The translations under genes were made by a program, and so were the position numbers. Of a stretch of DNA of 48,827 bases, positions 43,071 through 46,750 are shown one piece after another. This DNA comes from Gemmatimonadota bacterium (GTDB lineage: Bacteria > Gemmatimonadota > Gemmatimonadetes > Longimicrobiales > Gaopeijiaceae), in contig PXFI01000336.1 in NCBI GenBank assembly GCA_003564295.1, positions 1 through 48,827 on the forward strand, written 5' to 3'. The notes beneath the pieces were generated by a model that searched no databases, had not been told where the DNA came from, and saw only the letters and a list, made by a program, of their open reading frames with translations. Position 1 is the stretch's first letter. Each line of letters opens with the position of its first letter.

Positions 43071-43428
43071 GATCAATGGAGCCGATGATTCAAGGTAAGA
43101 AAAGGGCCCGTAGGCCCACCTCCAATAGCCCTTAAAACTTACGAACCTGCTGCACCGTGTCAATTTGGTGAGAGTTCATGACGCACGTTCCGAAATCGCT
43201 GGGTCTTCGACTCTCCGGATTTCCTCAGGGGCTGTGCGTCGCCAAAGTATGACCGCATTGCTCTCCACACTCTATACCCCGAAGCACTCACCTGGGATCG
43301 TGCCTCCGGAGATTCTGCCGCCGAGTGAAGACGCTTCGCCAGCCCCCACGCGCGATCCAACCGCTGCTGGCCTGAGTGTGCCGCCGGGCCACGGGCTGCG
43401 CCGGCCCCGCCTGGAGCCGAACGGTGGC

Positions 43429-43512
43429 AGGCCTCAGAGGCGGGACCGCGGGCCTCAGAGGCAGGATCGCAGGCCTCAGATCTGGGACCGCAGGCCTCAG
43501 AGGTGAGACCGG
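43429..43512. repeat. 4 x 21-bp tandem repeat overlapping the 3' end of the PilB-like gene
   Basis: AGGCCTCAGAGGCGGGACCGC / GGGCCTCAGAGGCAGGATCGC / AGGCCTCAGATCTGGGACCGC / AGGCCTCAGAGGTGAGACCGG. Confidence 0.95.
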
Positions 43513-45659
43513 CGGATGATGGCTCTGACCCGGGCTATGAACCGATCCGCCTCCACGGACTTGGTGAGGAAGTCGTCGGCTCCGGCGTTCAGTAGCTCCG
43601 CCTCTTCGCTGACACCGGCGGTTCCCGTCCGGATCAAGATTGGCAGGGCCGCCGTGTCCGCCGAGCCCCTGACCCTGTTCAGAAACTCCCTGCCGTCCAT
43701 GGCCGGCATTCTCAGGTCCAGGATCACCAGGGAGAAGTCCGGGTCGGCCTCCAGAATGTCCAGGGCCTGGCGACCGTCCTCGGCTTCGTGGACTTCGAAG
43801 GCCACGTTCTCAAGCAGCGTCCGCATAAAGACCCGGGCCTCCTCGTCATCATCCACCAGCAGAATCCTGGGAGGCCCTTCGCCCTCTTGGGACCTCTCCT
43901 CTTCATCCAGGGACTGCCCCAGAACCCGCTCCACCTCAACCAGTGTGGCCTTGCCTTCCCGAACCCACTCCAGGCCTACCCTGTGCATGGGGCGCATTCC
44001 CCCCTGCTCCGCCAGCCGACCCAGGGTGGCCACTCCCTTCCGGGCCTCGATGGCGGCAGCGAGGCGGGAGTTCATGATCATGACCTCCATGACCGGGAGC
44101 CTCCCCCGGTACCCGGTGAACCCGCACTCCGGACAGCCCACGGCCCTCACCACCGGCTCCGCCCCGTGCCGTTCCGAGAGGCGGCGCTCCTCCGGCGTCA
44201 GGGAGCCCCGAACGGGCTCGGCACAGTCGGCGCAGACCCTCCGGAGGAGACGCTGGGCCAGGGCCCCCCGGAGGGTGGCGGCGATAGTGGAGTACTGGAG
44301 ACCGAGATCAACCAGCCGCGGCACGGCGCTCACAGCGTCGTTGGCATGGACCGTGGTCAGCACCAGGTGCCCGGTCATGGCAGCCTGGGCGGCCGTCTCA
44401 GCCGTCTCCCGGTCCCGGATCTCTCCCACCAGAATCACATCGGGGTCCTGCCGCAGGATGGAGCGGAGGGCGGCGGCGAAGGTAAGCCCCTGCTTCGTCT
44501 CCACTTGGGTCTGGGTGATGGTGGGGAGCTCATACTCGATGGGGTCCTCCACCGTCATGACGTTGACCTTCCCGTCGGCCAACTCCCTGATGACCCCGTA
44601 GAGGGTGGAGGTCTTCCCGGATCCGGTGGGCCCCGTGACGACGATAATCCCGTCCCGGTAGGCCATGAGCTGCCGCAGGCGGGCCAACTCGGCGGCAGGC
44701 ATGTTCAGGTCGTCCAGGGTCACCGTGGTGTTGGAGTCCAGGACCCGGATAACGCACTTCTCGGCCCCACCCGCCGGTAACGTGCTCACCCGTAGATCGT
44801 AGGCCGACGGGCCCACCCGAACCCTGGCCTTCCCATCCTGGGGCCTCAAGCGGTCGGTGATGTCCAGTTTGGAGAGGATCTTCACTCGGGAGACGACCCG
44901 GTTGAGGGCCGCAATGGGGAGGTCCATATGCCTTCTCAAAACCCCATCCACCCGGTACCGGACCGCCCCCATCTTCTGCCCCGGCTCGATGTGGATGTCG
45001 CTGGCTCCCTGGGCGATTCCGTCCCTGATGATGAGGTTGGTGAGCTTCACCACCGGAGTTGCCTGGACGTCACCTTCGGTAATGGCTTCGGGCCCCATAT
45101 CCTCCACCAGCTTCACCGTGTCCTCGGCGGCATCCCCCAAATCGGAGCTCCCAAGGAGATTATCAACGTCCCTCTCCGGGGAGGACCGGTCATCCAGAGC
45201 CCTCTTGATGGCCCGGGGAGGAGCTACCTGGAAGACGGCTTGCCGGCCCGAGGTGAACCTCAGGATCTTCTCCACCTCCACATCGGTGGGATCGGCGGTG
45301 GCCACCACCAGCTGCCGGTTCGTTTCCAGAAGAGGAAAGATGAGGTGCTTTCGGGAGATGGCCTCAGGGATCACCTGGAAGGCTTTCGGATCGGCAGCGG
45401 AGAAGTCCGCCACCTCCATCCGGAAGAAATCCGCCACCACATCGGCCAGCTCGGTCTGCGAGACTCCCAGCCCCTTGCAGGCGGCGTCCCAGGCGTCCGC
45501 GGCCGGTACCCCGGGAGATACGTTCAGGGAGGTCGCTCCCGCCAGGCCGGCTCGCTGGGCAATGCGGACGACCCAGTGGCCCGAAGGTACGCCCTTTGCG
45601 GAGCCTTCACTTCTGGCCGAAGCCGTCCTGGACCCTGACTCGGAGCCTTTGGTGCTCAA
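43497..45659 (-). CDS. PilB/GspE-type secretion/pilus ATPase with N-terminal MshEN-like domain and C-terminal response-regulator receiver domain
   Basis: Walker A VTGPTGSGKTSTLYG; VEDPIEYELPTITQTQV; CADCAEP...CPECGFTGYRGR; C-terminal ILLVDDDEEARVFMR...LVILDLRMPAMDGREFL...LTKSVEADRF. Confidence 0.93.
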   Translation of the reverse strand: MSTKGSESGSRTASARSEGSAKGVPSGHWVVRIAQRAGLAGATSLNVSPGVPAADAWDAACKGLGVSQTELADVVADFFRMEVADFSAADPKAFQVIPEAISRKHLIFPLLETNRQLVVATADPTDVEVEKILRFTSGRQAVFQVAPPRAIKRALDDRSSPERDVDNLLGSSDLGDAAEDTVKLVEDMGPEAITEGDVQATPVVKLTNLIIRDGIAQGASDIHIEPGQKMGAVRYRVDGVLRRHMDLPIAALNRVVSRVKILSKLDITDRLRPQDGKARVRVGPSAYDLRVSTLPAGGAEKCVIRVLDSNTTVTLDDLNMPAAELARLRQLMAYRDGIIVVTGPTGSGKTSTLYGVIRELADGKVNVMTVEDPIEYELPTITQTQVETKQGLTFAAALRSILRQDPDVILVGEIRDRETAETAAQAAMTGHLVLTTVHANDAVSAVPRLVDLGLQYSTIAATLRGALAQRLLRRVCADCAEPVRGSLTPEERRLSERHGAEPVVRAVGCPECGFTGYRGRLPVMEVMIMNSRLAAAIEARKGVATLGRLAEQGGMRPMHRVGLEWVREGKATLVEVERVLGQSLDEEERSQEGEGPPRILLVDDDEEARVFMRTLLENVAFEVHEAEDGRQALDILEADPDFSLVILDLRMPAMDGREFLNRVRGSADTAALPILIRTGTAGVSEEAELLNAGADDFLTKSVEADRFIARVRAIIRRSHL

Positions 45660-46696
45660 GGTTCGTTCGACGCCCTTCCCCGCGGGGAGGCCGCCCTCTT
45701 GGCCCTCTTCTCAAGGTGCATGGCCTGGTCGGCCAGAGCCAGGAGCTCGGTGAGCCTGGGTCGGCCTTCTGCGGCAAAGCGGGCAGTGCCCAGTGAGAGG
45801 GAGAGCCGGAATGGCTGTTTCCCGGACCGGTTCACATCATCCACCCGTTCTCTCAGCCGGCGGGTCATCTGGTCTTCGTTCTCCTCCGATGCCTCCAGGG
45901 CCAGAACGGCGAACTCGTCGCCCCCCATGCGCCCCACGATGTCGGATTGCCGAAAGGTATCCCTCAGTACGTTTGCCGTCTGTATCAGGACGCTGTCTCC
46001 GACCAGGTGACCCAACGTGTCGTTGACGGTCTTGAGCTCGTCCACGTCCACATAGACCAGGAGGACGGCACGGCCCGAGCGCCTCGCCAGCTTCAGGTGC
46101 TGCTCTCCGAGGTCCAGGAAGCCCCTGCGGTTGTAGAGGCCCGTGAGGTCATCGATGAGGGAGAGGCTGCGGAGGGCCGACATGAGCCTGTGCCGCTCCA
46201 CGGCGTAACGGAGGGACCGCATGAGGAGATCGGCTCCCACCTGCCCCTTCACCAGATAGTCCTGGGCTCCCCCCTGGACCGTGCCCAGGCCCAGCTCCTC
46301 GTCGTCCAGGCCGGTGAGCACCACAATGGGCACCTCCGGTGCGAAGGCATGGGCCCTTTCGAAGGTGGTCAGGCCCTGGCTGTCGGGAAGAGCCAGGTCC
46401 AGGAGCAGGAGATCGAACCCCCCCTGGGAAAGCCTCTCCAGAGCCGAGGACAGGGTTCCGGCCCACTCCAGCTCCACGGGCCGGTCTCGGAACCTGGCAA
46501 AGGCCTCCTCCAACTCCGATACGCCCTGGCTTTCCACCTCCACCAGGAGGACTCTGAGGGGCCGCTTGCTGCCCGGGCCGTTTGCTGCGAGGGTTCTTTG
46601 CATCCCGGCGGAGGTGAGGAGTTGACGAGATGGCACGCTGGGGCCCGCGAAGCCCACGGCGGACCGGGTTTGCACGCTGGGGCCCGCGAAGCCCAC
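45656..46696 (-). CDS. response regulator with GGDEF diguanylate cyclase domain (true start uncertain)
   Basis: REC-like LRVLLVEVESQ...LLLLDLALPDSQG...DYLVKG; GGDEF RQSDIVGRMGGDEFAVLALE. Confidence 0.92.
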   Translation of the reverse strand: MGFAGPSVQTRSAVGFAGPSVPSRQLLTSAGMQRTLAANGPGSKRPLRVLLVEVESQGVSELEEAFARFRDRPVELEWAGTLSSALERLSQGGFDLLLLDLALPDSQGLTTFERAHAFAPEVPIVVLTGLDDEELGLGTVQGGAQDYLVKGQVGADLLMRSLRYAVERHRLMSALRSLSLIDDLTGLYNRRGFLDLGEQHLKLARRSGRAVLLVYVDVDELKTVNDTLGHLVGDSVLIQTANVLRDTFRQSDIVGRMGGDEFAVLALEASEENEDQMTRRLRERVDDVNRSGKQPFRLSLSLGTARFAAEGRPRLTELLALADQAMHLEKRAKRAASPRGRASNEP

Positions 46697-46750
46697 GGCG
46701 GGCCAGCTTCACATGCTGAAGCCCGCGAAGCCCACGGCGGGCCAGGTGGG
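46634..46750. repeat. 3 x 39-bp tandem repeat near the 5' end of the GGDEF gene
   Basis: CACGCTGGGGCCCGCGAAGCCCACGGCGGACCGGGTTTG repeated at 39-bp spacing (46634, 46673, 46712). Confidence 0.95.

Follow-up and report, generated by a model that had tools for sequence, protein, structure and literature searches.

A GspE/PilB-type motor ATPase with a C-terminal receiver domain and its overlapping GGDEF partner gene in Gemmatimonadota

The window analysed here, a stretch of 48,827 nt from contig PXFI01000336.1 of a Gemmatimonadota bacterium (assembly GCA_003564295.1), carries two overlapping genes of signalling interest (Table 1). Gene A specifies a GspE/PilB-type ATPase that ends in a receiver (REC) domain, and gene B, just upstream, a REC-GGDEF protein. 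The reading we lean towards is that A is a phosphorelay-output motor, phosphorylated at D648, that has lost its c-di-GMP input, and that B is an accessory cyclase. The parts of this reading taken from sequence are the domains, their residues, the gene overlap, its conservation, the confinement of the fusion to a single clade and the linkage of kinase and Hpt genes in sister clades. Pilus and secretion motors are tuned from outside by c-di-GMP, by PilZ/FimX or by chemotaxis-like pathways; if A is indeed a motor that is its own response regulator, a kinase would reach the motor in a single step. No earlier description of a motor ATPase-receiver fusion was found in the open-access literature, most subscription papers lying outside that search.

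Table 1. Features of the gene pair and its flanks (positions are those of the window).
Feature	Position (nt)	Strand	Details
Gene A, GspE/PilB-type ATPase with C-terminal receiver	43,497–45,659	minus	720 aa, TTG start
A residues 29–161, N-terminal ND0+ND1, MshEN/PilB-N fold without c-di-GMP motifs	45,177–45,575	minus	AF2, Foldseek, motif score
A residues 199–577, T2SSE motor ATPase domain	43,929–45,065	minus	Pfam PF00437, 2e-115
Walker A of A	44,607–44,633	minus	GPTGSGKTS
A residues 598–711, receiver	43,527–43,868	minus	Pfam PF00072, 8e-26; D603/D604, acceptor D648, T678, K700
TTGA overlap, A start codon on B stop codon	45,656–45,659	minus	4 bp
Gene B as called, REC-GGDEF	45,656–46,696	minus	346 aa, GTG start
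B residues 50–153, pseudo-receiver	46,238–46,549	minus	Pfam 2.5e-13, family columns; E53, V54, D100, T128, K150
B residues 180–334, GGDEF diguanylate cyclase domain	45,695–46,159	minus	Pfam 4e-37
GGDEF signature of B	45,911–45,925	minus	
I-site of B	45,941–45,952	minus	RQSD, five residues ahead of GGDEF
21-bp tandem repeat, 3' end of A	43,427–43,511	not assigned	4 copies
39-bp tandem repeat, overlapping the called 5' end of B	46,633–46,747	not assigned	2.9 copies

The first-pass annotation of this region had been made from the letters and open reading frames, and its description of the two genes (coordinates, length of A, 4-bp overlap) was confirmed. The fusion of the ATPase to a full C-terminal REC domain was likewise borne out by Pfam and by the complete set of receiver residues. 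A possesses the motifs of the T2SSE superfamily (Walker A, Asp box, Walker B, His box and the two CxxC of the tetracysteine), all near invariant across its relatives, in agreement with the earlier report of an intact Walker A and tetracysteine. Orthologues of A are 57–75% identical. Its top NCBIfam matches were TIGR02533 GspE (460.6 bits) and TIGR02538 PilB (444.8 bits), both under the equivalog cut-offs (630.25 and 675.65, respectively). Because both cut-offs were missed the name PilB is not secured, and the initial label of a PilB-type ATPase holds in the sense of a GspE/PilB-type T2SSE motor only. A further difference from these two families is that no platform (PilC/GspF), T2SS or T4P gene lies near A in the window. 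The full-length AF2 model of A was poor (pTM 0.28), with no REC-motor interface seen in it. Relatives of A on plasmids were generic ATPases only, none covering 80% of A, and a search for sigma-70 promoters found none. Tandem repeats unrelated to each other lie on either side of the gene pair.

The N-terminus of A had been described as MshEN-like, and A as a possible c-di-GMP receptor. As to the fold, the description stands. An AF2 model of residues 1–200 had a mean pLDDT of 79.5 (at least 85 in each block of residues 31–160), and its best Foldseek matches were the N-domain of X. citri PilB (7lko, 2.7e-7) and MshE with c-di-GMP (5htl, 6.3e-7). The model displays the MshEN/GSPII fold of a four-helix ND0 and an alpha/beta ND1, with fewer or shorter helices in ND0 than in MshE. 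The Pfam MshEN match (PF05157, residues 87–161, 8e-14) is partial (profile positions 12–87 of 90) and corresponds to ND1. The c-di-GMP site of MshEN domains is made of tandem 24-residue motifs, RLGxx(L/V/I)2xxG(L/V/I)2xxxxLxxxLxxQ, with a 5-residue spacer (PMC5013675), and it is this part that A does not retain. The best score in A was 4/11 per motif, and among the 30 orthogroup members scored the median tandem score was 7.5 of 22 versus 7.7 for shuffled sequences, with none at 14 or above. The corresponding values were 8.0 versus 8.1 for 42 other REC-fused ATPases (motif lost in 41) and 16 for 69 receiver-free ATPases (46 scoring 14 or above), motif loss and REC fusion being confounded by common descent in this comparison. 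On these scores, which included positive controls, c-di-GMP binding by A was rejected: the binding residues are absent across the whole orthogroup, an outcome named beforehand as counting against the receptor claim. Conserved in the A family in place of the motifs are W29 and A56-W57. An ATPase on another contig of the same genome (C144) carries a recognisable tandem motif (9/11 and 7/11, 29 residues apart), and since PF05157 matches this protein and A alike, the Pfam name MshEN does not show binding. Such a match should be read with caution, as it may fall outside the binding motifs.

Two characterised proteins are close to this half of A. MshE of Vibrio cholerae, an MshEN c-di-GMP-binding extension ATPase (PMC5013675), has the ATPase core and N-terminal fold in common with A, but A lacks the tandem motif and has a C-terminal receiver that is not found in MshE. 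Bd2402 of Bdellovibrio bacteriovorus, an MshEN-containing response regulator that binds c-di-GMP (PMC5013675), also links a GSPII/MshEN-type N-domain to a two-component receiver, whereas in A the motif is gone and a complete motor ATPase is present.

The receivers of A and B are not equally preserved. That of A has the DD, D, T, K set of response regulators, with both acidic residues, the phospho-Asp and the Thr found in 31/31 orthogroup members and the Lys in 30/31, and because of this conservation A looks phospho-regulated. The receiver of B in the window lacks the complete set, having E53-V54 at the acidic pair, with D100, T128 and K150 kept. Among its relatives, 18 of 20 have a non-acidic residue at the second acidic position, 10 of 21 have the phospho-Asp (the other 11 have S, N or E there) and 15 of 21 have the Lys. 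PleD and WspR are REC-GGDEF diguanylate cyclases, and B resembles them in domain order, GGDEF signature and RxxD I-site but differs in its missing DD pair and in the frequent loss of the phospho-Asp among its relatives. Under the definition given in PMC12632262, the receiver of B is a pseudo-receiver, and since its residues are not conserved B is probably not phospho-regulated.

The cyclase domain of B appears to be in working order. The canonical GGDEF and RxxD reported by the first reading were found again, and the GG(D/E)EF signature is accompanied by the Mg and GTP residues of diguanylate cyclases; across the B family the GGDEF Asp and the I-site R/D occur in 22/22 and the Mg and GTP residues are nearly invariant. 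B is thus probably a working, product-inhibited diguanylate cyclase. Its true start is likelier to be M32 (46,603), because relatives begin near there and the initial ~31 codons of the called gene read through the 39-bp repeat. A Shine-Dalgarno sequence is not visible at either position.

The pairing of A and B, also proposed at the outset, proved to be conserved, so the other outcome named beforehand as counting against the proposal, a pairing absent from relatives, did not occur. Across 96 genomes from the family of the source organism, orthologues of A were found in 33 (one truncated) and of B in 28; both were present in 22, A only in 11, B only in 6 and neither in 57. The pair spans about 15 genera, and a 4-bp overlap is possible in 16 of the 22 distinct loci with both genes, the remaining gaps being 2 to about 30 bp. 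The module is thus genuine but facultative, and separable, since some genomes have just one of the two genes. At several loci the gene order is the same: NtrC-type regulator - kinase, or else sigma/anti-sigma genes, and after these B - A - (porin) - secD - secF - tatD - mutL. In lineages with A and no B, a metal-ABC permease or SCO1-like gene (named by eye) is upstream of A. Decayed or truncated remnants of A lie beside an intact B at four loci (L177:6032-6976, L179:7064-7705, L181:5788-6129 and L184:6145-7257). Within the window, A has neither a kinase gene nor an Hpt gene as its direct neighbour.

In the phosphorelay-output reading, A would be a secretion or pilus extension-type ATPase converted to a response-regulator output, and a kinase or Hpt protein encoded elsewhere would phosphorylate D648, changing how the motor assembles or how actively it hydrolyses ATP. 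The N-domain would keep the PilB/GspE docking fold with c-di-GMP binding gone, so that phosphorylation would have replaced c-di-GMP as the direct input. B, co-translated just upstream of A, would be a feedback-inhibited and probably active cyclase that, as its receiver is a pseudo-receiver, is probably governed by contact with a protein or by its expression level, not by phosphotransfer. Its c-di-GMP may act on other receptors, such as the C144 ATPase with its recognisable MshEN motifs. The phosphotransfer, the effect on the motor, the target machine and the route by which B acts are the parts of this scheme that we infer.

Three other arrangements were weighed. In X. citri, a PilB with the same N-domain fold and no motif is controlled through PilB-PilZ-FimX, FimX having degenerate REC and GGDEF domains (PMC8389850); the pair studied here differs in that the receiver is within A itself. 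B could likewise be a scaffold that contacts A or a bridging protein, with its pseudo-receiver or GGDEF/I-site as a c-di-GMP sensor or docking part, and both the translational coupling of the two genes and the structural closeness of the N-domain of A to that PilB agree with this. We nevertheless hold it to be unlikely: no PilZ protein was matched in the source genome (~89% complete), B has no EAL domain and a GGDEF that looks catalytic, and A is kept without B in 11 genomes. A second alternative, distinctly unlikely in our view, is that the two genes have no direct functional link and are neighbours through a stable gene order (kinase/sigma cluster - B - A - secDF - tatD - mutL). In its favour, secD, secF, tatD and mutL are as conserved there as A and B, B still precedes secD at loci from which A has vanished or where it has decayed (L176-L181, L184), and A also occurs where B is missing. 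The 4-bp overlap at 16/22 loci and the strong co-presence of the genes across the 96 genomes (Fisher p = 1e-8, without correction for relatedness) point the other way. The first-pass proposal of a closed two-input motor module, with one phosphorelay phosphorylating both receivers and c-di-GMP from B binding the MshEN domain of A, draws on the overlapping and conserved pair, on D100, T128 and K150 of the window B and on the match to c-di-GMP-bound MshE, but is highly improbable because the motifs of A are gone (both at chance level in 30/30 members scored) and B has a pseudo-receiver (second acidic residue non-acidic in 18/20, phospho-Asp missing in 11/21), and the two genes have been lost independently. 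With the c-di-GMP site of A lost, phosphorylation and c-di-GMP are unlikely to converge on the motor itself in the way first proposed.

The machine that A drives was sought in the rest of the genome. The single PilC is encoded on contig C54, beside another PilB and a PilT, and given this separate PilB-PilT-PilC cluster A was rejected as the main PilB. A T2SS home was rejected because secretin searches gave no match in the ~89% complete genome. Dependence on T4P was not indicated by co-occurrence of A with PilC in the family genomes, which was not significant (25/32 versus 43/63, p = 0.35), and in two genomes that are 94–97% complete (G072 and G056) A is present and PilC was undetected. Prepilin-type sequences occur in 12/12 genomes tested. 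A may be an alternative motor for the one pilus platform, or it may drive something else.

Matches to A (E ≤ 1e-108) were present in 147 of 298 genomes of the phylum. A receiver is carried by 73 of 143 distinct ATPases, nearly all of the 73 from Gemmatimonadota. In a tree of the ATPase core, all 61 REC-fused rows fell on one side of a single branch (support 85), a side that includes one Acidobacteriota protein, and the fusion needed one change (0/500 shuffles as low); the tree was built by a quick method, its root is not known and it has long branches (L140, L004, L082 and L163). The window orthogroup formed a 21-row clade with support 100. This pattern fits a Gemmatimonadota-wide clade of ATPase-REC proteins that arose by a single fusion.

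Outside the window orthogroup, 16 of 34 ATPase-REC loci examined have a Pfam-verified kinase and/or Hpt neighbour: a hybrid kinase ending REC-REC-Hpt (L135, L137, L138, L044, L169, L170 and L171), a kinase plus a stand-alone Hpt gene (L134 and L152), a stand-alone Hpt gene (L045, L144, L164, L165, L166 and L168) or a kinase-REC (L173). By coordinates, the overlap with these neighbours is 4 bp at L137, L138, L134 and L152. At L136 and L139 a prepilin gene is immediately upstream. A motif scan saw no GGDEF gene beside these other loci; a GGDEF partner thus seems to be peculiar to the window orthogroup. The chances seem evenly poised that this is a motor clade which acquired its receiver once across Gemmatimonadota, serves as the direct output of multi-step phosphorelays (hybrid kinase, Hpt, motor) and exchanged c-di-GMP input for phosphorylation, a cyclase being recruited alongside in the window lineage. 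The confinement of the fusion to one clade, the invariance of the receiver residues and the presence of linked Hpt genes make phosphorylation of the motor directly testable in vitro.

Several members of the clade depart from the plan of A. The source genome has a second ATPase-REC (L004/L134, contig C126:4316-6565; 749 aa, 32% identical to A), which is flanked on one side by a hybrid kinase (HisKA-HATPase-REC-REC) and on the other by an Hpt gene, both of which overlap it or lie close by; with its Walker B and its His box degraded, it may serve a phosphorelay as a pseudo-ATPase. The paralogues L140, L141, L142 and L143 are without Walker A/B and keep the receiver and N-domain, which poses the question of whether they are dead motors retained for signalling. 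A separate, widespread subfamily (L154-L160) consists of orphan ATPase-REC genes at a fixed place near engB-like GTPase genes (by eye), with kinase neighbours absent. A basal relative of A (57%) at L144:7425-12876 lies in a cluster Hpt - REC - ATPase-REC - Hpt - CheY-like - CheA, which suggests chemotaxis-type control. Lastly, the 905-aa ATPase-REC at L163:5626-8343 bears an extra C-terminal domain that, by eye, is GAF-like and looks like an additional sensory input on the same motor family.
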